Assembly: GCF_004216905.1 (NCBI RefSeq)
Contig: NZ_SGXJ01000001.1
Span: 2,356,001-2,420,000 of the forward strand
Direction: 5' to 3'
DNA from: Kribbella sp. VKM Ac-2569
GTDB lineage: Bacteria; Actinomycetota; Actinomycetes; Propionibacteriales; Kribbellaceae
Length of the DNA: 64,000 nt
The position numbers and the translations under genes were made by a program. The notes beneath the pieces are model-generated. The model saw only the letters and a program-made list of their open reading frames with translations. It searched no databases and had not been told where the DNA came from. Shown piece after piece: positions 7,944-63,449 of this stretch; the first letter of the stretch is position 1; every line of letters starts with the position of its first letter.

Positions 7944-10472
7944 TCAGAGTGTCAGGCGGGCGAGTAGGTCCTCGACGCGTTCGGTCCGGCCCGTGTGGCG
8001 GTGACGGTCCCAGTCCTCGCGGGAGATCGTGTCGCCGACGAGTTCGAGGGCTTCGGCGAGTTCCTCGTCCAGGTACGGATTGGGGATCTCGAGCCGTTCG
8101 CCCATCGCTTCCTCCGCGCCGAACAGGTGCGCGGCCCCAACCGGGTCGCCGCGCCGGATCAGCAGGTTCATGACGGTGTTCGAGAACGCCATCGTGAGAC
8201 TTGGGCTGCCGAGCGCCAGTACGGTCGGCAGCACCCCTCGGGCAAGCTCGGCGGCCTCGTCGGGCCGGCCCGCGAGGATCAACAGATACGCGAGGTTCTG
8301 CCCCTGTACGGCGATCTCGTGCGCGTCCCCGATCGACTCGGTGATCGTGAGGGACTCGCGGAGCAGGTCCTCGGCGTGCTCCAGGTTTCCGAGGTCCTCC
8401 TCGATGCCGCCGAGGTGGCTGAGCACCCGCGCCAGGCGCCAGTCGTCGTCGAGGCTGCGGAGTCGTTCGACAGCCTCGGTCAGCGTCGCCCGCGCCGCGT
8501 CGAGATCGCCCTGCTGCCGTTGCGCCGACCCGAGCACGGTCATCCCGAACGCGATACCGGCCGGGTCGTCCAGCTCCCGAGCGATCTCCAGGCTGCGGGT
8601 CGTCAACTCATGGGCACGTTCCGTCTCGCCCTGCATGAGTAGGAGGTTGCTCAACCCGCGCAGGCAGGCGGCCAGCTCCGGCGATGACGTCGTACCGGCG
8701 GCCGCGATCACCTGCTCGTGCCAGGCGCGACTTTCGCCGATATAGCCGCCGAACAGCCAGACCCAGCCGAGCGCCGAGCACAGGCGCAGCCCTGTTCTGA
8801 CGTCGTTCTCGGTCGCCCAGGTCAGCGCGGCGCGGAAGTTGTCGAGGTCCGCCTCGGCCCGCTCGACCGGCGGCTCGGACATGGTCTTCTTGATGGTCTC
8901 GAGGTGGTCGGCGAGGTCGGCGTAGTACGCCGCGTGTTCGCGATGGACGGCCTCGGCTTCGGCGGTGCGGTCCAGCTCGTCGGCGGCGTACCGGCGGATG
9001 GTTTCCAGCAACTGGACGCGGGTGCCGTCCGGCCCGTCGGACAACGTGATCAGGTTGGCGTCGTGCAGCTCGGCGAGGGCGTCGAGCGGGTCGATGCCGG
9101 TGGCAACTTTCTCGACCGCGGCCAGGTCGGCGCCGCCCGCGAAGACCGCGAGGCAGCGGAAGGTACGACGGTGTTCGGGGCCGAGCAGCTCGTACGACCA
9201 GGCGATCGTCTCCCGGAGCGTCCGCTGGCGTTCCGGGGTCGCCGCACTGGTGGACGCGATGTCGAGCGCCTGATCGATCCGGGCGAGCAGCTCCTTGACA
9301 CTGAGCAGCCGCACCCGCGGCGCGCACAGCTCGATCGCGAGCGGAAGCCCGTCGAGCCGACGGCAGATCGCGACCACGTCGGCCGAGTTCTCGTGGGTCA
9401 GCGTGAACGTCGGCCGGACGGCCTGGGCGCGCTGCACGAAGAGTTGTACGGCGTCATCTGTGATCGACAGTGGCAGCACCGGGTGCTGGTACTCGCCGGT
9501 GAGGCCGAGCGCTCGCCTGGACGTGGCGACGAGCTTCACGTGCGGCGCGCCTTCGATGATCTCGGCGACGACCTTGCCGGCGTCCGGGAGTTGCTCGAGG
9601 TTGTCGAGCACGAGCAACAGGGTCCGTTGCGCCAGGTAGGCGACGATCCGGCCGCGCTCCCGCGGCGGGATGTCGAGGACTTCGGCGATCGTCGTCCACA
9701 GCACCCGCGCGGACGTGACCGCCGCGAGCGGAACGAAGTACACCCCGCCCGGGAACTTCGTGGTCAGCTCCGCGGCCACGCCGATCCCGAGGCGCGTCTT
9801 GCCCGACCCGCCCGGTCCGGTCAGGGTGACGAGCCGTACGTCGGACCTGTCGAGCAGACCGGTGACGCGGTCGAGATCCTGTTCGCGCCCGAGCAGCGGC
9901 GTCGCGGGCGAGGGCAGGCTCGTCGACGTACCGACAGTGCGTGGTGGCGGGAAGTCGCCCTGCAAGCCGTCGATGGTGACTTGGAGCAGGTGCTCGGGCT
10001 CCGGGATGTCCTTGAGGTGGTGCGTGCCGAGATCGCGCAGCGTGACACCGTCGGGCAATTGCGTCAGATCACCGGTGACGGCCGACACCACGATCTGCCC
10101 TCCGTGTGCGGCGGCCCCGATCCGTGCGGCGAGATGGACGTCCATGCCCCAGTAGTCTCCGTCGTACACGCCCGGCGTACCGGTATGGATCCCCATCCGC
10201 ACCCGCAGCCGCTCGTCGTCCGGCCATCGGTGCTCTTCCAGCTGCCGCTGCCCGTCGACGGCCGCAAGGACCGCCTCGCCGGCCGTCCCGAACACGACGA
10301 AGAAGCTGTCGCCCTCGGTCCCCATCTCGGTCCCGCCGTACGCCGTCCAGACCGCCCGCAGGATCCGCCGATGATCTTCCAGCGCGTCCAGGTACCGGTC
10401 CCCCAACCGGCGCAGCAGCAGCGTCGACCCTTCGATGTCCGAGAACAGCATCGCCACCATTCCCCCACCCAT
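7944..10472 (-). CDS. Class III adenylate/guanylate cyclase domain + AAA ATPase + TPR regulator
   Basis: An 842-residue multidomain protein. Residues 1-165 are a class III nucleotide cyclase domain with metal aspartates at FSDIEGST (Asp12) and [12 protein letters not shown] (Asp55). A signalling ATPase follows, with Walker [12 protein letters not shown] (about 219-229) and a Walker B-like [10 protein letters not shown]; the rest is an alpha-helical repeat region of TPR type. In the transition-state segment MDVHLAARI a His stands where classical cyclases have Asn (Arg117 is kept), so activity is doubtful. The frame is open further upstream but overlaps the next lacI; ATG at 10472 (or 10460, preceded by GGGGGA) starts directly at the cyclase domain. 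Such proteins are usually cytoplasmic signal sensors; the ligand is unknown. Confidence 0.88.
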
Positions 10473-53084: not shown

Positions 53085-53167
53085 CGGAAGCTCCTGAGTC
53101 GGGCCGGTTGGATGACCCCACGCTCCCGCTGTGGAAGGTTGTACGCAGGAGGGCAGCCCCTGCCCTC

Positions 53168-53189
53168 GTACCAGGGTTAACCCTGGTAC
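53168..53189. promoter_or_regulatory. 22-bp perfect palindrome in divergent promoter
   Basis: The half-site GTACCAGGGTT (53168-53178) is followed at once by its exact reverse complement to 53189, centred at 53178/53179. It lies 84 bp upstream of the membrane-protein start and 31 bp upstream of the kinase start. Perfect symmetry of this length points to a homodimer-binding operator; the response regulator at 55281-55931 is a natural candidate. Confidence 0.75.
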
Positions 53190-53220
53190 GCCGCCGCTGC
53201 GGATCTGCCACTATGTCTGC

Positions 53221-55284
53221 ATGTCTGGGCTGCGCTCGGCCGGTGCGGCCGAGCAGTACGACGAGGGTCCGGCGCCCGCGCGTGAGGCGCTGGTAGGAGT
53301 CGTTGGGCTCGGCACGGCTCTGCTCGTCGGGTACGGGTTGATGCTGGGTTTCCACCTCGACAACCTGCACAACGGCCTTCTCGGTGCGGCGTTCACGGCC
53401 GTCGGCCTCTACGTCCTCCGGGTGCGCCCCGGCCATCGCGAGGCCCGGTTGTTCGTGGCCACCGGCATCGCGTCGGCGATCATGTTCTTCGGCCGGCAGT
53501 ACGGCCTCCATGATGAACCGCTTCCCGGCGCAGCGTGGCTCGGCTGGATCGGTGTCTGGCCGCTGCCGTTGGTGATTGCATTGGCCGGGGTGACAGTGAT
53601 GGCGTTCCCCGACGGCCGGTTTCTCTCCCGATGGTGGCGTATTGCGGCGCTCGCGATGGTCGTGGTCGCGGCGGTGCTCGCGGTGCCCTCAGCTCTGTGG
53701 CCGGTGGAGTACGACCGAGTGGGCGTGATCGCGCCTCACCCATTCGACGTCCCTGGTGCGGACGTCGCAGAGAGCCTCCTGACGCCGGCCCGCACGGTTT
53801 GCTATGGGCTGTTCCAGTTGTTGTTCACGATCGCTGTGGTGGCACGGATGCTGCGTGCCGAGGGCGACGAGGCCCGGCAGTTGCGATGGTTCGTCTTCGC
53901 CGTCGGAATGGATCTCGTGGTCCTGCTGGTCGGCGTGCTGGTGCTCAGCACTCCTCTTCCCGGCCTGCTCGGCACGCCGGTGGTCGCCATCGCCGCGGGC
54001 GTGGCGATCCTCAAGTACCGCCTCTATGACATCGACCCCGTCATCAACAAAACCCTCGTCGTCGGTGTGATGGCCGCGGTCATCACAACCGGCTACCTCG
54101 TGGTTGTGGTTGGTGTCGGTGCACTCGTTCCCTTCCCGGAGGGTGTGATGTCACTGGTTGCGACCGCCCTGGTGGCGCTGGCGTTCGAACCGGCACGGCG
54201 ACGCGCCCAGCGGCTCGCGGACCGGCTGGTCTACGGTCACCGGGCGACGCCGTACGAAGCGTTGTCCAGCCTCTCGGCACAGCTGATCACTCCCCGCGGC
54301 GAGCTGCTGGACGGCCTCGCGGCGGCAGTCGCGAACGCGGTCGGCGCGACCGAGGTCGTCGTGTGGGTCGGTGATGACCGAGCGCTCCAGGCGGTCGCCG
54401 CCTGGCCGGATCGGTGCGATCGGCCGCCGGCCTCGCTGGCTCAGCTGGGTGAGGAGCGCCAGATTGTTCGCCAGGTCGTGCACGACCGCGTGATTCGAGG
54501 CGCGGTGACTGTCCGCAAGCGTGTGGGGGAGCCCCTGACCGAGCCGGAGGATCGGCTGCTCATCGACCTGGTCGCCCAGGCCGGTCTGGTGATCGACCAT
54601 CATGCGAAGGTGCAGCAGGTTGCCGACCAGGCCGCCGAACTGCAGGCCGCGGCTCGCCGGATTGTAACCGCCCAGGACGCGGCTCGGCGTCGGATCGAGC
54701 GCAATCTGCACGACGGCGCCCAGCAGCGGCTCGTGACTCTCGGCCTCGAGCTCGGCGCGCTCGCGGAACGGGCCGCCGAGTCCGGCGACCCGGACCTCGC
54801 GGAGCGTGCGGAGTCCGCACGCCGCCAGCTTCTCGACGCCACTGCGGCACTGCGCGAGATGGCCCGCGGGCTGCACCCGTCGGTGCTCACCCAGGACGGG
54901 CTGGGGCCGGCACTGGCCGATCTCGCCGACAGCTCTCCGGTCCCGGTGCAGCTCCGCGTCGACGTCGCTCAGCGGCAGCCGGCCGAGGTGGAAGCGACGG
55001 CATACTTCTTCGTGAGCGAGGCGATCACCAACGCTGCCCGGCATTCCGGCGCCGCGGTCGTCGAGGTGGTCGCCCAGGACGACGGAGAGGGGCTGCGGGT
55101 TCAGGTGTCCGACGACGGCGCCGGTGGCGCCGATCCCGCGGCCGGCAGTGGACTGCAAGGCCTCGTGGACCGGCTCGCCGCGCTCGGCGCGCGGCTGGAG
55201 ATCGAGAGCCCACCACGGGCCGGCACCCGCCTTCGCACTCACATCCCAGTCGACTGGCCAACGCCGTCCCGGGAGGGACCGTGA
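53221..55284 (+). CDS. Sensor histidine kinase with membrane and GAF-like domains
   Basis: This 687-residue kinase has about eight predicted N-terminal membrane helices (residues 20-280), a GAF-like input region, a HisKA_3 dimerisation helix with phospho-acceptor His497 (RRRIERNLHDGAQQRLVTLG), and a C-terminal ATPase with EAITNAARHSGA and SDDGAGG. ATG 53221 is preferred over an open reading from 53131, since that would run through the palindrome at 53168-53189. Coupled by four bases to the response regulator. Confidence 0.93.
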   Translation: MSGLRSAGAAEQYDEGPAPAREALVGVVGLGTALLVGYGLMLGFHLDNLHNGLLGAAFTAVGLYVLRVRPGHREARLFVATGIASAIMFFGRQYGLHDEPLPGAAWLGWIGVWPLPLVIALAGVTVMAFPDGRFLSRWWRIAALAMVVVAAVLAVPSALWPVEYDRVGVIAPHPFDVPGADVAESLLTPARTVCYGLFQLLFTIAVVARMLRAEGDEARQLRWFVFAVGMDLVVLLVGVLVLSTPLPGLLGTPVVAIAAGVAILKYRLYDIDPVINKTLVVGVMAAVITTGYLVVVVGVGALVPFPEGVMSLVATALVALAFEPARRRAQRLADRLVYGHRATPYEALSSLSAQLITPRGELLDGLAAAVANAVGATEVVVWVGDDRALQAVAAWPDRCDRPPASLAQLGEERQIVRQVVHDRVIRGAVTVRKRVGEPLTEPEDRLLIDLVAQAGLVIDHHAKVQQVADQAAELQAAARRIVTAQDAARRRIERNLHDGAQQRLVTLGLELGALAERAAESGDPDLAERAESARRQLLDATAALREMARGLHPSVLTQDGLGPALADLADSSPVPVQLRVDVAQRQPAEVEATAYFFVSEAITNAARHSGAAVVEVVAQDDGEGLRVQVSDDGAGGADPAAGSGLQGLVDRLAALGARLEIESPPRAGTRLRTHIPVDWPTPSREGP

Positions 55285-55931
55285 GAGTGGTGCTCGCCGA
55301 CGACGCGGTGCTTTTCCGCGAGGGAATGGCGCGGATCCTCGCCGAGGCCGGCTTCGATGTCGTAGGTCAGGTGGGTGACGGCGCCGAGCTCGTCGATTTG
55401 GTCCGGCGCGACCCGCCCGATGTGGCGGTGATCGACCTGCGGATGCCACCCGGCTACAGCGCAGAGGGGATCGACGCAGCCGCGAAGATCCGTATGGCTG
55501 TGCCCGCCGTCGGATTGATGCTGCTGTCGCAATACGTCGAAGTCCACCACGCGATGCGGCTGATGACCGACTTCGACGGAGGAGTTGGTTACCTGCTCAA
55601 GGACCGAGTCTCGGACCTTACGACGTTCAGCGTCGACGTACGGCGAGTCGCCCGGGGCGAGGTGGTGATCGACCCCGAGCTGGTCACCAGACTGGTCGGG
55701 CGGCGCCGGCAACGTGATCCACTGGCTGAACTTACGGACCGCGAGCGTCAGGTGCTGGGCCTGATGGCGCAGGGCCTCTCCAACACCGCGCTGGCGGACG
55801 AAATGCACCTGAGCTTGAAGACCATCGAGGGGCACGTCAACAGCATCTTCACCAAGCTCGACCTCGCTCCCGGCGAACGTGACCACCACAGGCGGGTACT
55901 CGCGGTCCTGCGCTTCCTCCGGCAGGAGTGA
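55281..55931 (+). CDS. NarL/LuxR-type response regulator
   Basis: A 216-residue regulator with receiver Asp52 in VAVIDLRMPPG and a LuxR helix-turn-helix LTDRERQVLGLMAQGLSNTA. GTG 55281 overlaps the kinase stop (GTGA). The receiver-to-output linker carries YLLKDRV, as in DesR/LiaR-like regulators. Probable binder of the 22-bp palindrome in the same region. Confidence 0.94.
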   Translation: MRVVLADDAVLFREGMARILAEAGFDVVGQVGDGAELVDLVRRDPPDVAVIDLRMPPGYSAEGIDAAAKIRMAVPAVGLMLLSQYVEVHHAMRLMTDFDGGVGYLLKDRVSDLTTFSVDVRRVARGEVVIDPELVTRLVGRRRQRDPLAELTDRERQVLGLMAQGLSNTALADEMHLSLKTIEGHVNSIFTKLDLAPGERDHHRRVLAVLRFLRQE

Positions 55932-56255: not shown

Positions 56256-57668
56256 TCAGAGGGCACGTCCCGGGTTGAGGAGGTTCATTGGATCGAAAGC
56301 ATGCTTAACTCGTTTCGTCAGGTTGCGTGTGCCAGGGTCGAGTTGCTTGGGGAGGTGTTGTTGCTTCAGTACACCTATCCCGTGCTCGCCGCTGAGGACT
56401 CCTCCGAGGCTGAGACCCAGGTCCATGACCTCCTCGAAGGCCGTCTTGGCACGGTGGCGCGCGTGACTGTCCGCCGCGTCGAACACAATGGTCGGATGCA
56501 TGTTGCCGTCCGCGGCGTGACCGAACGTCGCGATGGTGAGTTCATGTCGTTCAGCGATCTGGCCTACGCCAGCGACAAGGGCGGGCAGTTGGTGCACTGG
56601 GACGGCGACGTCGTGTAGAAGAATCGCGCCCTTGCTCTCGAGGGCGGTCAGCGCCACGGCCCGAGCAGCCATGAGCTCGTTGCCTTCGGCAGGGTCGTTG
56701 GTTCGGAACACCTCCGACGCTCCGTGGTTGCCTAGCAGGTCGCCTGCTAGTTCAGCGTCAGTGGAGTTTGCTGTCTCTGAGCCGTCGAACCGCAGAAGTA
56801 GCACCGCGGCAGCTGTGGTGTTGATACCCATCCTGGTGAACTCGTTCACTGCAGCGATGGTTTGTGAATCCATGATCTCGACCGCTGAAGGAGCCAGTGT
56901 CCGGGTGAGAATGTCCACCGCGATGACCGCCTGGCGAAGCGAGCCAAACAGGGCTACGACGGTCGACGTCCCGACAGGCCTTGGATGCAGCCAGACCGTT
57001 GCCTCCGTGATCACCGCCAGGGTGCCCTCGGATCCGACGACGAGACTGGTCAGATCCAACCCCGTGACGTTCTTGCGGGTCCGTGAGCCGGTGCGCAGAA
57101 CCTGACCATCGGAAAGTACGACGGTCAGGGCGGCGACGTGTTCTCTGGTGACGCCGTACTTGACGCAGCACATTCCTCCGGCGTTGGTGGCGATGTTGCC
57201 TCCGATGGTCGAGATGTCTCGGCTGCCGGGGTCCGGCAAGTATCCAAGGCCGTGCCCTGACGCGGCCCGATCGAGGTCGCCGTTGATGACGCCGGGCTCG
57301 ACCCGAGCCAGACGCCCGACGGGGTCGATCTCGACGATTCGATTCATGTCGGCCAAACTGAGCATGATGCATCCGTCAATCGCATTCGCTGCCCCGGTGA
57401 GCCCTGTACCTGCACCCCGGGTCACGACGGGTATTTGGAAGCGATGTGCGACCTTGAGCGTCTCCACCACATCCTCCTGCGCCGTTGCGCGGACGAGGTG
57501 GGCTGGTACCCCGGCTGTCGTGAGTAGGCACTGGTCGGCAAGATAGGCCGACATCTTCTCCGGATCACCGCTGGTCACCTTGCGGCCGAGGGCCGCTCGG
57601 AGGGCGGCGTGAACGGTGTCCGAGGAGATGCGCGGCGGGGTCTGACGAACGATGTGCGTTTCAGTCAT
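56256..57668 (-). CDS. GlcD-type FAD-linked oxidase
   Basis: This 470-residue flavoprotein of the D-lactate/glycolate/D-2-hydroxyglutarate dehydrogenase family has a VAO-type FAD domain with PVVTRGAGTGLTGAA and STIGGNIATNAGG, and a C-terminal cap with GHAADGNMHPTI (metal/substrate His) and GEHGIGVLK. It should oxidise a D-2-hydroxy acid. ATG 57668 overlaps the upstream MFS stop; the longer open frame before it shadows that transporter. Last gene of the TetR-controlled cluster. Confidence 0.92.
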   Translation of the reverse strand: MTETHIVRQTPPRISSDTVHAALRAALGRKVTSGDPEKMSAYLADQCLLTTAGVPAHLVRATAQEDVVETLKVAHRFQIPVVTRGAGTGLTGAANAIDGCIMLSLADMNRIVEIDPVGRLARVEPGVINGDLDRAASGHGLGYLPDPGSRDISTIGGNIATNAGGMCCVKYGVTREHVAALTVVLSDGQVLRTGSRTRKNVTGLDLTSLVVGSEGTLAVITEATVWLHPRPVGTSTVVALFGSLRQAVIAVDILTRTLAPSAVEIMDSQTIAAVNEFTRMGINTTAAAVLLLRFDGSETANSTDAELAGDLLGNHGASEVFRTNDPAEGNELMAARAVALTALESKGAILLHDVAVPVHQLPALVAGVGQIAERHELTIATFGHAADGNMHPTIVFDAADSHARHRAKTAFEEVMDLGLSLGGVLSGEHGIGVLKQQHLPKQLDPGTRNLTKRVKHAFDPMNLLNPGRAL

Positions 57669-58993
57669 GAGCCTGCCTCGCCAGTCGCGGCCGACTTGGT
57701 GACCCGCTGAGAGTTCTTGCGGGTCGTCAGGGCGAGCAAGCCGCTGAGCACCAGACAGCCGGCCATTGCCGTGAACGGTTGCTGGTAGCTTCCGCTGAGG
57801 TCGCGCAGCCATCCGGTGAAGTAGCCTGCGGCGAAACCCCCGAGACTTCCGATGGTGTTGATCAAGGCCAGGCCGGCGGCCGCCGCGGGGCCCGAGAGTG
57901 ACCCGCTCGCGATGGTCCAGAAGACCGGGATGGCTGAGTAGATCCCGATCGCGGCGATCGAGACGCCGAGCATGAGAAGTGCGAACGAGTTCCCGGCATG
58001 GGCACACAGCAGCACGGCAGCGCCGGCAAGCATGGCCGGAGCCGAGTATCGCCACGGATGCAGGCCGCGAGTCCTGCAGCGCCGACTCCACGTCCACGAG
58101 GCGATCGCACCGAGGCTGAACGGGATGAAGGTCACGAGGTTGATCGCGCCTGTCCCAGCACCGGCGATTGCGGTGGTCGCCAGTGGCAGGAAGAAGCTGA
58201 TGGCGAACATCGGGAAGGTGAGCAGTACGAACGTGACTGCCAGCCTCATCGTTGCGGCGCTGCGCAGTGCGGCGACGAACGAACGGCTCTCCTCAGCCTT
58301 CACTGACTCGCGGGCAGCGGCTTGCTCGAGCGCGCCCTGTTCGTCAGCGCTGAGCCACCGCGCCTCGTTGGGTGTCGAGGGTAGAGCTCGGAGGACGACG
58401 AGTCCCAGGACCACTGCGGCAAGGCCTTCGACAGCGAACATGAATCGCCAGCCATCGACACCGAACGTGGAGGTTCCGTGGTGGATGAGCCAGTTGGAGA
58501 CCGGACCGCCGAGTGCGGTCGAGAGTGGTACGGCGACGTAGTAGGTGCCGAGGACCGTGATGCGATGGGGCCCGCTGAACCATCGTGAGATGTAGAACAG
58601 AATTCCGGGCAGGAGTCCCGCCTCCGCGATGCCGAGCAGGATGCGCATCGTCGCGAATGAATCTGGGCCGACGATGAGGGCGTGGGCCGCCGCGGCGAGG
58701 CCCCAGGTGACGGCGATGCGTGCGAGCCACGTCCGCGCACCGACGCGATAAAGTATGTAGTTGCTGGGCACCTCGAGGAGTACGTAGCCGACGAAGAACA
58801 ACGCTACGCCGAGTCCGTAGGCAGCCGTCGTCATCCCGAGATCGGCGTTCATGTGAGGTGCCGCGAAGCCAACGTTGACTCGGTCGAGGTAGTTGACGAA
58901 CAAGAGGGCGATGAGGATAGGAAGCAGGCGCCTCATCGCTTTGCGATTGGCCGACTCCAAGGTCGCGTTCTGCTGTGCTGGGGTGGTGTTCAT
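57665..58993 (-). CDS. MFS transporter, anion:cation symporter type
   Basis: This 442-residue, 12-helix MFS protein begins LLPILIALLFVNYLDRVNVGFAA with the ACS-family signature and EVPSNYILYRVGARTWLARI at helix 2-3. The family imports organic anions such as tartrate, phthalate, glucarate or hydroxy acids. It overlaps the M24 gene upstream and the FAD oxidase gene downstream, each by four bases. Confidence 0.92.
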   Translation of the reverse strand: MNTTPAQQNATLESANRKAMRRLLPILIALLFVNYLDRVNVGFAAPHMNADLGMTTAAYGLGVALFFVGYVLLEVPSNYILYRVGARTWLARIAVTWGLAAAAHALIVGPDSFATMRILLGIAEAGLLPGILFYISRWFSGPHRITVLGTYYVAVPLSTALGGPVSNWLIHHGTSTFGVDGWRFMFAVEGLAAVVLGLVVLRALPSTPNEARWLSADEQGALEQAAARESVKAEESRSFVAALRSAATMRLAVTFVLLTFPMFAISFFLPLATTAIAGAGTGAINLVTFIPFSLGAIASWTWSRRCRTRGLHPWRYSAPAMLAGAAVLLCAHAGNSFALLMLGVSIAAIGIYSAIPVFWTIASGSLSGPAAAAGLALINTIGSLGGFAAGYFTGWLRDLSGSYQQPFTAMAGCLVLSGLLALTTRKNSQRVTKSAATGEAGS

Positions 58994-60153
58994 CGTCCAC
59001 TCTCAATCAAGGCGCGCGCGCCGGGGTCGGTGGTGAGGTTGATGGTTCTGTCGCGTCCGACGTAAACGAAGTCCTCGATGTGGAAGCCCTGCGTAGGGTT
59101 GACCCACCCGAGCTCGATCTCGAGCGTCATCCCCTCGACGAGCGGTTCGTCGTACTCGACGGTGAGCTGCGGTTCCTCATGGAGGACTAGCCCGATGCCG
59201 TGGCCGACGATGCTCCAGCGGAACTCTTCGCCACGCTGCTCGTACTCGCGTCGCGCGAGATCCACAAGCTCTCGCGCTACGACGCCTGGACGGGCGGCGT
59301 CGACGATGACGTCATGTACGGCGCTGATCCGGTCGAATCGTGTTCGCTGCTCGCGGCTGGCGGTGCCGACGACAGCGGTGCGTGCGATGTCGGAGCAGTA
59401 GCCATTTATGCGGACGCCCCAATCGGTGCGGATGAGCATCCCGGTCTCGAGGGCCTTCTGACTGGGCCAGGGGTGCCATTGGCCGGCGCGGCAGCCACCT
59501 CCGAATATCGAGTGGGTGAGTTCCTGTGCACCGGCGCGCATGAGTGCGTCCGTGATGCGTGCTGCGACCGCGAGCTCGGTGTCGCCTGCCCGGAGCGTGC
59601 TGAGTGCGTCCTCGAGGTGCCGGGCGGTCAGCTGGTTAACCTCGGTCAGGAGCTGCACCTCGGCTGGCGTTTTCACCTGTCGCATCTGGTTGAACAAGGG
59701 CCACGCGTCCCCGAATCGTAGACCGGGCATTCGGTGCCGGAGCCCGTCGGAGATCTTGACGGGACAGGCGCGGTATTCCACGCCGATCAGGCCATTTGTC
59801 AGGCCGAGATCAGCCAGTGCATCGGCGACCACGTCAACCATGTGTTCGTGCTCGCCGCGGTACCCACGAATGTCGCTGATGTACGGGCGGTCTTCCTCGG
59901 GTGCCCAGGTCCCCGAGTCGGTTCCGTTCCAGTTGTCAGCGCGGGCCTTGGGAACGACATAGATCGGCTCCCCGCCGGCGGGCCACACGACGATGTGCAG
60001 GCGCTCCCAGGTGAGTCGCATGTCTGGGTGGTAGAAACCTGAAAGATAGTGAGTGTTTTCAGGCCAGGTCGAGACGATCGCGTCGAACTGACTTTCCGCG
60101 AGAAGCCTTCGGACCCGTTCCATGTCGGCGTAAGTGTGAGTCGGGATAGTCAT
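58990..60153 (-). CDS. M24-family (Xaa-Pro peptidase/creatinase-like) hydrolase
   Basis: A 387-residue pita-bread-fold enzyme with the five metal ligands in place: Asp244 and Asp255 (RTDWGVRINGYCSDIA), His318 (VGHGIGL), Glu347 (LEIELGW) and Glu360 (HIEDF). The N-terminal domain is that of creatinase/prolidase. In this cluster, cleavage of an amide in an imported compound is likely, but peptide and creatine-like substrates are both possible. Cytoplasmic. Overlaps the MFS gene downstream; nine bases after the DUF4392 gene. Confidence 0.9.
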   Translation of the reverse strand: MTIPTHTYADMERVRRLLAESQFDAIVSTWPENTHYLSGFYHPDMRLTWERLHIVVWPAGGEPIYVVPKARADNWNGTDSGTWAPEEDRPYISDIRGYRGEHEHMVDVVADALADLGLTNGLIGVEYRACPVKISDGLRHRMPGLRFGDAWPLFNQMRQVKTPAEVQLLTEVNQLTARHLEDALSTLRAGDTELAVAARITDALMRAGAQELTHSIFGGGCRAGQWHPWPSQKALETGMLIRTDWGVRINGYCSDIARTAVVGTASREQRTRFDRISAVHDVIVDAARPGVVARELVDLARREYEQRGEEFRWSIVGHGIGLVLHEEPQLTVEYDEPLVEGMTLEIELGWVNPTQGFHIEDFVYVGRDRTINLTTDPGARALIESGR

Positions 60154-60162
60154 AGTGCTGCC

Positions 60163-61179
60163 TCAGTGCGAGGGGGAGTCGGCTTGCAGGAGAGCTTGGG
60201 TGACTGCGGTCTGCATGAGCGTTGCCGCCGCCCGTTGGGCCACCAGGGGCACGCCGTCGTCGCTCAGGGTGGGGCGCGCGTACCAACCGCACACGGCCCC
60301 GGACCGGACGGCTGCCCGCAGGAGGTTCTCGACGTAGTCCGGGTCGGCGATCAGGTCAGGCCGCCTGATGAGATAGGCGATCAACGCCGTGACCGCGTAC
60401 CCGCCCCAGTCGGAGATCGCGGCGCTAAGGACGAGGTCGGTCGCTACAGCGGACGCCATGCCTGCGCCACAGGGGCACCGGCAGACGGAGCCCTGCGGCT
60501 GGATGGTTCCAACTTCGGGCACGGAGCCGAATCCGGCCTCGTTTCCTGCGTCGCCGATTCCGCAGGTCAGGATTCCGCGCGACTGCGCGAGCTTGAAGAG
60601 AACCGCGCTATCGAAGTGAACGTCGTGCCAGGGGAGCCCGGTAGCGCCGTGGATGATTCCGGCTCGATTTGGTGACAAGAGTTCGATGGCGAGAACCAGC
60701 GCTGGCTGGAGCTCATCCAGGATCCGGCCGCTGAATTCGCGGCCGAGATCATCGTCCTCCGGTGAGATGTGCAAGGTGATTGATCCCGGGCGGTGGTCCT
60801 CGGGACCGAGCCGGACATTGAGCTCTCCAGCGCGCACCACCTGGGTCAGAGGTTCCATGAAGCGCTCAACCGACGCCAGATGTACCTCAGCCCGCAGGCC
60901 GAGCGCGAGAACACGCGCGAGCGCGACTGCACCCAGGAGGCCGTCGATCTCACCAGTAGGAAGAGTGGGAGGACCGCCCGCTCCGCAGAGGATGAGGACC
61001 GTGTCGCCGGCCGTGACCCTGTTGACTATCCCTTCCGCCATCGCGGTGCTTAAAGGCGTGCCGGTACGGCGGCGTACGGCGTCGTACAGCTTGTGGGCAA
61101 CACCCCTTGGCATGTTGCCGAGGGGACGAAGTTCGGTGGTCATGATCTGGTCGACGTACTGTCCGATGATGGCAGGCAT
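60163..61179 (-). CDS. DUF4392, D-glutamate-cyclase-like protein
   Basis: A 338-residue protein of the DUF4392 family. The marker CGIGDAGNEAGFG (206-218) corresponds to the GIGDGGNE-type motif of mammalian D-glutamate cyclase, which turns D-glutamate into 5-oxo-D-proline; GLPWHDVHFDSAVL and a Cys-rich segment CRCPCGAGMAS flank it. No signal peptide. ATG 61179 lacks a clear ribosome site; an ATG at 61143 is an alternative. Location between an MFS gene and the M24 gene suggests a catabolic, not repair, role. Activity is inferred only. Confidence 0.8.
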   Translation of the reverse strand: MPAIIGQYVDQIMTTELRPLGNMPRGVAHKLYDAVRRRTGTPLSTAMAEGIVNRVTAGDTVLILCGAGGPPTLPTGEIDGLLGAVALARVLALGLRAEVHLASVERFMEPLTQVVRAGELNVRLGPEDHRPGSITLHISPEDDDLGREFSGRILDELQPALVLAIELLSPNRAGIIHGATGLPWHDVHFDSAVLFKLAQSRGILTCGIGDAGNEAGFGSVPEVGTIQPQGSVCRCPCGAGMASAVATDLVLSAAISDWGGYAVTALIAYLIRRPDLIADPDYVENLLRAAVRSGAVCGWYARPTLSDDGVPLVAQRAAATLMQTAVTQALLQADSPSH

Positions 61180-61224
61180 AAAGGAGCCCCTTGGTCGTTG
61201 GTCAGGCGGCAGGTTCGGCGTAGG

Positions 61225-62571
61225 TCAGCGCCGCGTGGGAGCGCCGGGCTGGGCAGAGCTGGCGAACTCTGGGCGTCGCCGAAGCATGAGAGCGACACAA
61301 GCTCCCATCGCCATGAATGCCGCGACAACGAACATCGCCGGCTTGTAGCTCCCGGTAGCTGTCTCGAGGCCACCAGTCATGTATGGCGCGACGAACCCAG
61401 CCACGTTCGCGAGGCCGCCCGCGACTCCGATTCCTGCGGCCGCCGCGGCGCCAGTGAGGAAGCGAGGCGGGAGCTGCCAGAAGACGGGCAGTACCGAGTA
61501 GCTCCCGGCCGCGGCAATGGAGATGGCGATCATGACGAGAGTGGTGTTGGGCAAGTACAAGGCGATTGAGACGGCGATGGCGCCGACGAGCAATGGGATG
61601 GCCGCGTGGAAGTGCCGTTCCTGGTGGCGGTCTGAGCTGCGACCGACAAGCCACACCGCGGCCGCCGCGGCGACAAAGGGAATAGCGGTGAGGAGTGCGG
61701 TATCCCAGATCGAGAAGTCCTGGTCGAACTGTACGGCCAGGTTTGCGACGACCTGCGGCAGAAAGAAGGACAGGGCGTAGCCGCCCATGTTGACCGAGAA
61801 CCCTATGAACGAGACGGCGTAGATGCGCCAGTCCTTGAGGGTCGAATAGACATCAGACGGACCGTGCTCGGCTGCGCTATCAGCCTCCGATTCAAGAGTT
61901 GAGCAGAGCGCGGTGCGCTCATCGTCGGTGAGCCATAAGACGTTCTTTGGGGAGCTCGGCAGTACGAAGAACACGACGATGCCGACAACGACGGCGGGTA
62001 TCGCCTCGGCGAGGAACATGAAACGCCAGCCTTCGAGCCCGAACAGGCCATGCCCGTGCTCGATGAGCACGGCTGAGAGCGGCGCACCCAGGACGACCGC
62101 AAAAGGGATCGCGATGATGAAGAGGGCGACCATCCTGGCCCGAACCTGACTGGGAAACCAGAGTGTCAACAAGTAGATGACTCCTGGCACGAAGCCCGCC
62201 TCTGCGATTCCGAGCAGAACCCGGGCCATGTAGAAGCCCAGCTCCGACTGAACGAAGCCCATCACCCCCGAAATCAGGCCCCAGGTAACCATGATTCGGG
62301 CAAGCCAGAGTCGTGCGCCCAGCCGGTGAAGGATGACGTTCGAGGGCACCTCGAACAGCACGTACCCGATGAAGAACAGACCGGCGCCGAGGCCGTAGGC
62401 GGCGGTCGAGAGTCCGAGGTCGGCGTTCATCTTCGCTGCCGCGAAGCCGATGTTGACCCGGTCCAGGTAACTGATGACATACATCAGCATGACGAGCGGA
62501 ATGAGCCGCGCCGCCGCCTTGCGCGTCGCCGTCTGCAGGGCCACCGAGACACCGGTTGGACTAGTGGTCAT
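61225..62571 (-). CDS. MFS transporter, anion:cation symporter type
   Basis: This 448-residue, 12-helix MFS protein of the ACS family has LIPLVMLMYVISYLDRVNIG at helix 1 and EVPSNVILHRLGARLWLARI. It is related to, but clearly different from, the transporter at 57665-58993. GGAGG six bases before ATG 62571 sets the start. It is the first gene of the cluster, directly downstream of the inverted repeat at 62584-62612. Confidence 0.92.
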   Translation of the reverse strand: MTTSPTGVSVALQTATRKAAARLIPLVMLMYVISYLDRVNIGFAAAKMNADLGLSTAAYGLGAGLFFIGYVLFEVPSNVILHRLGARLWLARIMVTWGLISGVMGFVQSELGFYMARVLLGIAEAGFVPGVIYLLTLWFPSQVRARMVALFIIAIPFAVVLGAPLSAVLIEHGHGLFGLEGWRFMFLAEAIPAVVVGIVVFFVLPSSPKNVLWLTDDERTALCSTLESEADSAAEHGPSDVYSTLKDWRIYAVSFIGFSVNMGGYALSFFLPQVVANLAVQFDQDFSIWDTALLTAIPFVAAAAAVWLVGRSSDRHQERHFHAAIPLLVGAIAVSIALYLPNTTLVMIAISIAAAGSYSVLPVFWQLPPRFLTGAAAAAGIGVAGGLANVAGFVAPYMTGGLETATGSYKPAMFVVAAFMAMGACVALMLRRRPEFASSAQPGAPTRR

Positions 62572-62583
62572 GACGCCTCCTCG

Positions 62584-62612
62584 TACAGTGTATAGACAAT
62601 GAATACACCGTA
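62584..62612. promoter_or_regulatory. TetR-type operator before MFS cluster
   Basis: Inverted repeat TACAGTGTAT-N9-ATACACCGTA: six-base inner arms are exact and three more outer bases pair (one mismatch). It lies 13-41 bp upstream of the MFS start and 49 bp before the divergent tetR, the usual place for a TetR site controlling both. Confidence 0.65.
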
Positions 62613-62660
62613 AATGAACTTGAGGGAAGAGCTTAGATTCGCGTACGCCGTAGGTGTCTG

Positions 62661-63449
62661 GTGTACGGTCGAAACGTGACCTCACAGCCGGACCCCAGTC
62701 CCACCCGTGCGCCAGAGACCACGGATCGTTCACCGTTACGGCGAGATGGTTCCTCACGGTCGCACGTCGCCGCAGTGACATCGGATGACGTGGTGTCCAC
62801 GGCCCTGCGGCAAGCAGGCGAGCGTGGACTGGAGGCACTGTCGATCCGGAGCGTCGCCACCGAACTGGGTATCTCGCCGATGACGATCTACAAGTTCGTG
62901 GCGTCGAAGGACGAACTGATCGACGCCATGCTGGTCCTGGCGCTGAACAGGATGGAGATCCCGTACAGCAACGCGCCTGACTGGCAGCAGCGCGTCATCG
63001 ATGTCATGGTCGCGTGGCGAGAGCTCCTGCTGGATCATCCGAGCGTCGTCCAGTTGCTTGTCGAGCGGCGAGTACCTGCACACTCGGAGGGTCTCGGCCG
63101 ACTGGCTGAGCACGTCCTGGCCAACCTCGAGGATGGTGGGCTCACCGGACGGGCCGCGGCCCAGACGTTCTGGCAGCTGTTTTCACTGACATTCGGTCAC
63201 ATCGTCTTCGAGCGCCCGCGTCGCAACATCGACGAGGAGGCGCAGCGCGAGGCCGCGCAAGCCATGGCCGCGACGGCTCAGGCACGAGGCTTCGCCCGCG
63301 TCGCGAATTTGGCCGAGGATCTGACCAACCTCGCGGTCCGGGGGACACTGGAGACTTCGTTGCGGGTGCTGCTCGACGGACTTCCCTCACGAGGCGAGTC
63401 CCAATCTGTCAGCCAGAATGCCGCGGCGAGGGTTCAATTCGGTGAGTAA
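62661..63449 (+). CDS. TetR-family regulator of the DUF4392/MFS cluster
   Basis: A 262-residue TetR protein. After a disordered 40-residue N-terminus comes the DNA-binding domain with SIRSVATELGISPMTIYKFV, then a C-terminal ligand domain. GTG 62661 is used; a GTG at 62676 is equally possible, and the DNA-binding domain begins well after either. Its TAA stop lies within a dispersed 30-bp repeat (63433-63462). Divergent from the MFS cluster with an operator-like repeat between. Confidence 0.88.
   Translation: MYGRNVTSQPDPSPTRAPETTDRSPLRRDGSSRSHVAAVTSDDVVSTALRQAGERGLEALSIRSVATELGISPMTIYKFVASKDELIDAMLVLALNRMEIPYSNAPDWQQRVIDVMVAWRELLLDHPSVVQLLVERRVPAHSEGLGRLAEHVLANLEDGGLTGRAAAQTFWQLFSLTFGHIVFERPRRNIDEEAQREAAQAMAATAQARGFARVANLAEDLTNLAVRGTLETSLRVLLDGLPSRGESQSVSQNAAARVQFGE

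Follow-up and report, generated by a model that had tools for sequence, protein, structure and literature searches.

A TetR-linked transporter and hydrolase operon with a long-form DUF4392 protein in Kribbella sp. VKM Ac-2569, kept in part in two further actinobacterial genera

Results and discussion

Gene content and layout

We analysed a 64,000-nucleotide stretch of contig NZ_SGXJ01000001.1 (the window) from the 8.43 Mb genome of Kribbella sp. VKM Ac-2569, which contains a five-gene operon divergent from a gene for a TetR-family regulator. The operon encodes two transporters of the major facilitator superfamily (MFS1 and MFS2), a DUF4392 protein resembling D-glutamate cyclase, an M24 hydrolase and a dehydrogenase dependent on flavin adenine dinucleotide (FAD). 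The original prediction, made from the DNA letters, had described a co-directed, TetR-linked cluster of these families; Pfam searches and a check of the open reading frames (ORFs) agreed with it in families and coordinates, and the regulator gene and all five operon genes are intact. The features, with Pfam values in brackets, are as follows.

62676..63449, + strand: TetR-family regulator, 257 amino acids, divergent from the operon (PF00440, TetR_N, 7e-9; PF02909, TetR_C_1, 4e-9)
62644..62672, no strand: second, weaker operator-like site, adjoining TetR upstream, spaced 60 bp from the palindrome listed next and departing from the pattern at 2 positions
62584..62612, no strand: operator-like palindrome of 29 bp, TACAGTGTATAGACAATGAATACACCGTA, before MFS1, in a layout common to three genomes
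61225..62571, - strand: MFS1, 448 amino acids (PF07690, MFS_1, 5e-39)
60163..61179, - strand: DUF4392 / D-glutamate cyclase-like protein, 338 amino acids, long-form branch (PF14336, GLUCM-like_C, 2e-41)
58990..60153, - strand: M24B hydrolase of creatinase/prolidase fold, 387 amino acids (PF00557, Peptidase_M24, 2e-38; PF01321, Creatinase_N, 4e-12)
57665..58993, - strand: MFS2, 442 amino acids, 4-nt overlap with M24 (PF07690, MFS_1, 4e-33)
56256..57668, - strand: GlcD-like FAD-dependent 2-hydroxy-acid dehydrogenase, 470 amino acids, 4-nt overlap with MFS2 (PF02913, FAD-oxidase_C, 4e-61; PF01565, FAD_binding_4, 8e-41)

The intergenic gaps from MFS1 through DUF4392, M24 and MFS2 to the FAD gene measure 45, 9, -4 and -4 bp, and the five genes therefore probably share one transcript. 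The last three (M24, MFS2 and FAD) are probably translationally coupled.

A conserved block of TetR and four genes

Relatives of the DUF4392 protein were sought in 84,980 species-representative genomes with six exact peptide patterns, the result being a lower bound; the survey of the gene set covered about 1,560 genomes together with this one pattern scan. Close relatives were recovered from Nonomuraea fuscirosea (locus L011, 80% identity) and Amycolatopsis sacchari (locus L012, 71%). In both loci the order and strand of the divergent TetR gene, MFS1, DUF4392, M24 and MFS2 are kept, with identities to the host proteins, in that order, of 71/82/80/79/77% in Nonomuraea and 55/69/71/71/68% in Amycolatopsis. 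The four operon genes are thus similarly diverged, which fits inheritance as one unit. Furthermore, identity between the host and Nonomuraea drops steeply from codon positions 1 and 2 (81-91%) to position 3 (52-57%), as under purifying selection. The flanks of the block differ among the genomes: MFS2 is followed by another MFS gene in Nonomuraea and by a different, oppositely directed gene in Amycolatopsis. The original prediction had proposed a search for its five-gene set in other genomes. TetR and four genes (MFS1, DUF4392, M24 and MFS2) recur in two genera and form the conserved unit, whereas the FAD dehydrogenase gene belongs to the block of the host genome only, and conservation of the whole set was rejected.

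It could be argued that unrelated genes have simply come to lie under one promoter and share no pathway, as the lack of conservation of the FAD gene and of the flanks would allow. However, four genes (68-82% identity), TetR (55-71%) and the operator-like site stand in the same order in three genera, and we regard such a chance neighbourhood as very improbable: it is nearly refuted for the four-gene core, and may still apply to the FAD gene.

The block is rare. In the host genus the DUF4392 gene occurs in the host only (1 of 38 species), and in the class (395 genomes) one other genome carries a distant copy (30% identity), the three remaining matches being short, weak pieces. Among sampled genomes of the Amycolatopsis family it was found in 5 of 249, two of these with the long form, and in the Nonomuraea family sample in 1 of 251. 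Likewise, at E<=1e-50 the M24 gene was found in the host alone among 297 genomes of the class. Since so rare a block keeps its gene order across three families, its distribution appears best explained by lateral transfer among actinobacteria.

The operator-like sites

The original prediction had also noted a 29-bp inverted repeat, which is indeed present at 62584-62612, with arms that match at 10 of 14 positions. Taken alone, the host palindrome is no better than chance, since shuffling the bases of the 89-bp spacer between TetR and MFS1 yields an equally good one in 13% of cases (p about 0.13). What makes it convincing is that both further genera keep it and that a second copy lies 60 bp away. 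All three genomes carry the pattern TACRNYGTA-N11-TACRNYGTA between TetR and MFS1 (8603-8631 in L011; 8610-8638 in L012, where the site reads TACAGCGTACGAGATGCGGATACGGTGTA); it was derived from these three sites, so that the exact match there is by construction. In the whole host genome 62584-62612 is the sole exact match, and the other fetched loci held none beyond further copies of the three spacers. In the aligned spacers, Nonomuraea differs from the host by T to C in one arm and A to G in the partner arm, a compensated change. The second site, with two mismatches, is placed exactly 60 bp off in two of the three genomes, the host (62644-62672) and Nonomuraea (8543-8571, the two sites starting at 8543 and 8603). 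These comparisons suggest that the 29-bp site in the spacer is very probably an operator. The TetR frame opens at GTG 62661, with an alternative in-frame GTG at 62676; the latter is the likelier start, because the second operator-like site covers 62661.

Sites with one mismatch to the pattern were sought elsewhere in the host genome as pointers to further pathway genes, and of the three found, two have no evident link. A one-mismatch site at G000 C4:875910-875938 (L110) lies near another TetR gene and an MFS-like gene, and may be a related operator or a chance match.

The DUF4392 protein

The DUF4392 protein scores 142.8 bits against PF14336, for which the curated cut-off is 27.9, and the best fold match of its predicted model (pLDDT 74) is the archaeal DUF4392 protein TON_0340 (E 5e-11, TM 0.80 on target). 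Residues E77, D79, E166, D210, E214 and D308 do not vary among 12 homologs and line up with TON_0340; the two residues compared individually with the published work are E77, which aligns with Glu59, and D210, which aligns with Asp157, and TON_0340 lost its activity on mutation of Glu59 and Asp157 (PMC5132392). With this profile match and the metal-site residues kept, the earlier assignment as a D-glutamate-cyclase-like protein is upheld. In a tree of 39 sequences, long-form proteins separate from classical DUF4392 proteins with support of 100/99, and the host copy groups with the long form, outside the classical branch of short proteins of about 280-320 amino acids. The host protein shares the PF14336 profile, the fold and the acidic metal-site residues with TON_0340 and with the C-terminal domain of mammalian D-glutamate cyclase (DGLUCY), but it is longer, lies on the separate long-form branch, is set in a transporter operon and is known from its sequence.

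A C-x-C-x-C-G insert (C233, C235 and C237, residues 233-237) is present in the host protein and absent in TON_0340. It is also seen in long-form proteins of loci L013, L028, L030 and L060, and might provide an additional site for metal binding or redox chemistry. The insert was rejected as a marker of DUF4392 proteins that are linked to M24, because L028, L030 and L060 have it without an M24 gene.

The M24 hydrolase

The Peptidase_M24 and Creatinase_N domains and intact metal ligands of the M24 protein bear out the creatinase/prolidase-fold hydrolase first proposed. All five metal ligands of M24B enzymes (D244, D255, H318, E347 and E360) are present and in register with Pyrococcus prolidase. 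Creatinase is metal-free; with its five ligands M24 is thus, unlike creatinase, probably a metal-dependent hydrolase. Its predicted model (pLDDT 72) matches PepE, DoeA, prolidase and creatinase with Z scores of 25-28, the value of 27.5 for creatinase structure 7yto being a match common to the whole superfamily. With these enzymes it shares the two-domain creatinase fold and, with the prolidases, the five ligands, but structural alignments give only 18-26% identity. In addition, the Arg that follows HExP in the two Pyrococcus prolidases is replaced by Gln in the three actinobacterial M24 proteins and by Val in that of a Chloroflexi bin (L013). Its best-scoring relatives are prolidases and PepE, and it falls far below every curated cut-off for peptidases, DoeA and DddP. 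It reaches 103.4 bits against the archaeal PepQ model (cut-off 630), short of the level set for a prolidase or Xaa-Pro dipeptidase, and 56.5 bits (cut-off 575) and 38.2 bits (cut-off 613) against the models of ectoine hydrolase DoeA, short of the level for that family as well.

These scores bear on the idea that the operon scavenges peptides or pieces of peptidoglycan, M24 acting as an Xaa-Pro-type dipeptidase, the MFS proteins importing acidic peptides and DUF4392 cyclising D-glutamate to 5-oxo-D-proline, the reaction on which the family name is based (PMC5339696). Such a role would be consistent with the kinship of M24 to prolidases and PepE and with the Dpp-type or amino-acid ABC importers that adjoin several DUF4392 relatives. 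Nevertheless, we consider it unlikely given the distance of M24 from curated peptidase models (103 bits against 630 for archaeal PepQ), the replacement of the Arg after HExP by Gln or Val, and an occurrence as rare as that of the block itself (1 of 297 class genomes), unlike a housekeeping dipeptidase.

The transporters and the FAD gene

The best model for both MFS proteins is the D-galactonate transporter TIGR00893, with 286 bits for MFS1 and 237 bits for MFS2 (cut-off 395), followed by HpaX, a 4-hydroxyphenylacetate permease (271 bits for MFS1, under its cut-off). Thus the nearest models are importers, as the original prediction of two organic-anion importers would have it, but all scores lie below the cut-offs. 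Each MFS protein is about 40-42% identical to the orthologs of the other.

The FAD gene is an accessory, lineage-specific addition outside the conserved block. In the Nonomuraea and Amycolatopsis genomes its best homologs reach 45% identity, the level also seen for two background paralogs within the host, and elsewhere in the host genus the best reach 48%. The protein shares both FAD-family domains with GlcD, LctD and D-lactate dehydrogenase, and its best solved relative is glycolate oxidase (336 bits), ahead of LctD (255), D-lactate dehydrogenase (208) and D-2-hydroxyglutarate dehydrogenase (151). The earlier suggestion of D-2-hydroxyglutarate as substrate is not supported by this ranking below three other dehydrogenases. 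With 392 bits it also stays below the cut-off of 568 of the glcD equivalog, and the operon, unlike a GlcD system, has neither GlcE nor GlcF.

Among relatives of the FAD gene on plasmids, the closest (56%) was found in Rhodococcus sp. JS3073 (L122, 12001-13341), downstream of genes that look, from ORF starts alone, to be of reductase and oxygenase type. As a link to the pathway it was rejected, DUF4392 and M24 genes not being found near it.

Neighbourhoods of long-form DUF4392 relatives

Clusters with two DUF4392 genes each were found in Bradyrhizobium (L007), Paraburkholderia (L010) and genome G546 (L055), together with amino-acid ABC or shikimate-type MFS importers, a TIGR03576-like pyridoxal phosphate (PLP) enzyme, an aldehyde dehydrogenase and a HIBADH-type reductase. 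With the host operon these rhizobial-plasmid and Paraburkholderia clusters share a long-form DUF4392 gene, importers and an inducible-looking arrangement; they differ in the three enzymes named, in a LysR regulator, in the ABC or shikimate-type MFS importers and in the lack of M24. No described function for clusters of this type was found in the open-access literature searched. Tct importers stand beside DUF4392 in Devosia (L009), Sinorhizobium (L123) and Microvirga (L008, from ORF starts), and in L063 an enzyme of the alanine-racemase fold or D-serine-dehydratase type and Dpp-type importers accompany it. The theme common to the clusters of this section is the uptake and degradation of amino or peptide-like acids, in several of them with PLP enzymes, and the substrate probably differs between clusters. 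Moreover, in the Chloroflexi bin L013 an M24 gene (30% identity) and a Dpp-type ABC importer accompany a tandem pair of DUF4392 genes. A single origin of the DUF4392-M24 neighbourhood including L013 is unsupported by the tree, in which its DUF4392 copies form no single group with that of the host.

Some neighbourhoods might point to sugar acids. In L003 and L066 DUF4392 accompanies a Dpp-type ABC importer and a DgaE-family ammonia-lyase, which in L003 scores 349 bits against TIGR01437, just below the cut-off of 385. In L060 it accompanies a Dpp-type ABC importer and Ldh_2, enolase-superfamily, PfkB kinase, KDPG aldolase, RidA and ureidoglycolate-lyase-like genes. Taken with the D-galactonate transporter as nearest model of both MFS proteins, the L003 and L060 partners would suit a DUF4392 enzyme acting not on a lactam but on an amino-sugar acid or other hydroxylated amino acid, in an operon that degrades an amide-linked sugar acid, with oxidation of the hydroxy acid by the GlcD-like dehydrogenase. 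However, such partner enzymes are absent from the host block and the relatives concerned are only 26-37% identical, which makes this account of the host operon quite unlikely.

DUF4392 relatives were also seen on 60 plasmid records, most of them from Sinorhizobium and Bradyrhizobium. Many of these clusters have a pair of DUF4392 genes, with the TIGR03576-like PLP enzyme between or adjoining them, or have Tct importer genes adjoining, and for these clusters, too, no function was found. A defence or phage role was considered and rejected: there was no PADLOC match, no relatives of DUF4392 were found on viral contigs, M24 matches one PHROG of unknown function, and phage M24 genes are 25-27% identical among the matches listed.

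Proposed pathway and significance

The operon layout, the conservation of the block, the operator-like sites and the metal-site residues, all read from sequence as is the rarity of the block, lead us to propose, with somewhat better than even confidence, that the locus is an inducible operon through which a small anionic amide, peptide or lactam is taken up and hydrolysed, and which several actinobacteria share as a block. The kinship of the MFS proteins to importer subfamilies, the kept metal sites, the importers beside DUF4392 relatives and the L013 cluster support import followed by hydrolysis; the order of steps, the bond cleaved and the lactam step we infer as follows. The two MFS symporters would import a small acidic compound, and the M24 metallo-hydrolase would cut its amide, peptide or similar C-N bond. 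The metal-dependent DUF4392 enzyme would act on the amino-acid part, whether released or imported, and open or close a cyclic amide in it, as between D-glutamate and 5-oxo-D-proline. In the host only, the terminal GlcD-type dehydrogenase would probably oxidise a 2-hydroxy acid freed from the same compound. TetR would repress the operon from one or two of the 29-bp sites between its gene and MFS1, and be released when the inducer, the compound or its product, binds. A broader possibility, which we put forward tentatively and regard as rather doubtful, is that DUF4392 and M24 constitute a new two-enzyme hydrolytic route whose substrate is a D-amino-acid compound in cyclic or acylated form, and that the long-form branch comprises catabolic lactam or amino-acid enzymes with varied importers and partners.

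Several points weigh against the proposed uptake and hydrolysis operon. The roles reported for DUF4392 are those of archaeal TON_0340, a low Mn-dependent phosphatase activity whose true substrate was left open by its authors (PMC5132392), and of the mouse protein, which turns D-glutamate into 5-oxo-D-proline and carries the further domain DUF1445 (PMC5339696). Cyclase activity is thus that of a protein with an extra domain, the activity of TON_0340 being weak and phosphatase-like. The three actinobacterial DUF4392 copies sit on a long branch of the tree (1.19 changes per column), so their reaction may have changed. The N-acyl or lactam substrate and the glutamate/5-oxoproline chemistry of the original prediction are kept as possibilities for this protein outside the classical branch. 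Given the separate position of the L013 copies, DUF4392 and M24 may have come together more than once, or their link there may be a coincidence. Finally, since all MFS scores lie under the curated cut-offs, import as the direction of transport is our inference.

In agreement with the original prediction, a search of open-access papers, which include few subscription journals, gave no published pathway with this gene set; nor, within the same scope, was there any paper on a glutamate cyclase with M24 or on a similar bacterial cluster, and DUF4392 itself turned up in just two papers. All component families are known, and as far as checked the combination and the conserved unit are undescribed. 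DUF4392 spans archaea to humans, with the two differing roles reported above. Being small, probably inducible and equipped with a conserved operator-like site and two clear enzymes, the operon offers a direct way to the natural substrate of a bacterial DUF4392 protein, because the TetR inducer should be the substrate or its product. Moreover, the relatives on rhizobial plasmids suggest that this enzyme branch may help bacteria to use plant-associated amino compounds.

Neighbouring genes

Downstream of the operon and convergent with it, window positions 53131-55931 hold a membrane histidine kinase-like gene and a LuxR-type response regulator gene, which overlap by 4 nt. Elsewhere in the host genus, the LuxR-type regulator has best relatives of 59% identity.

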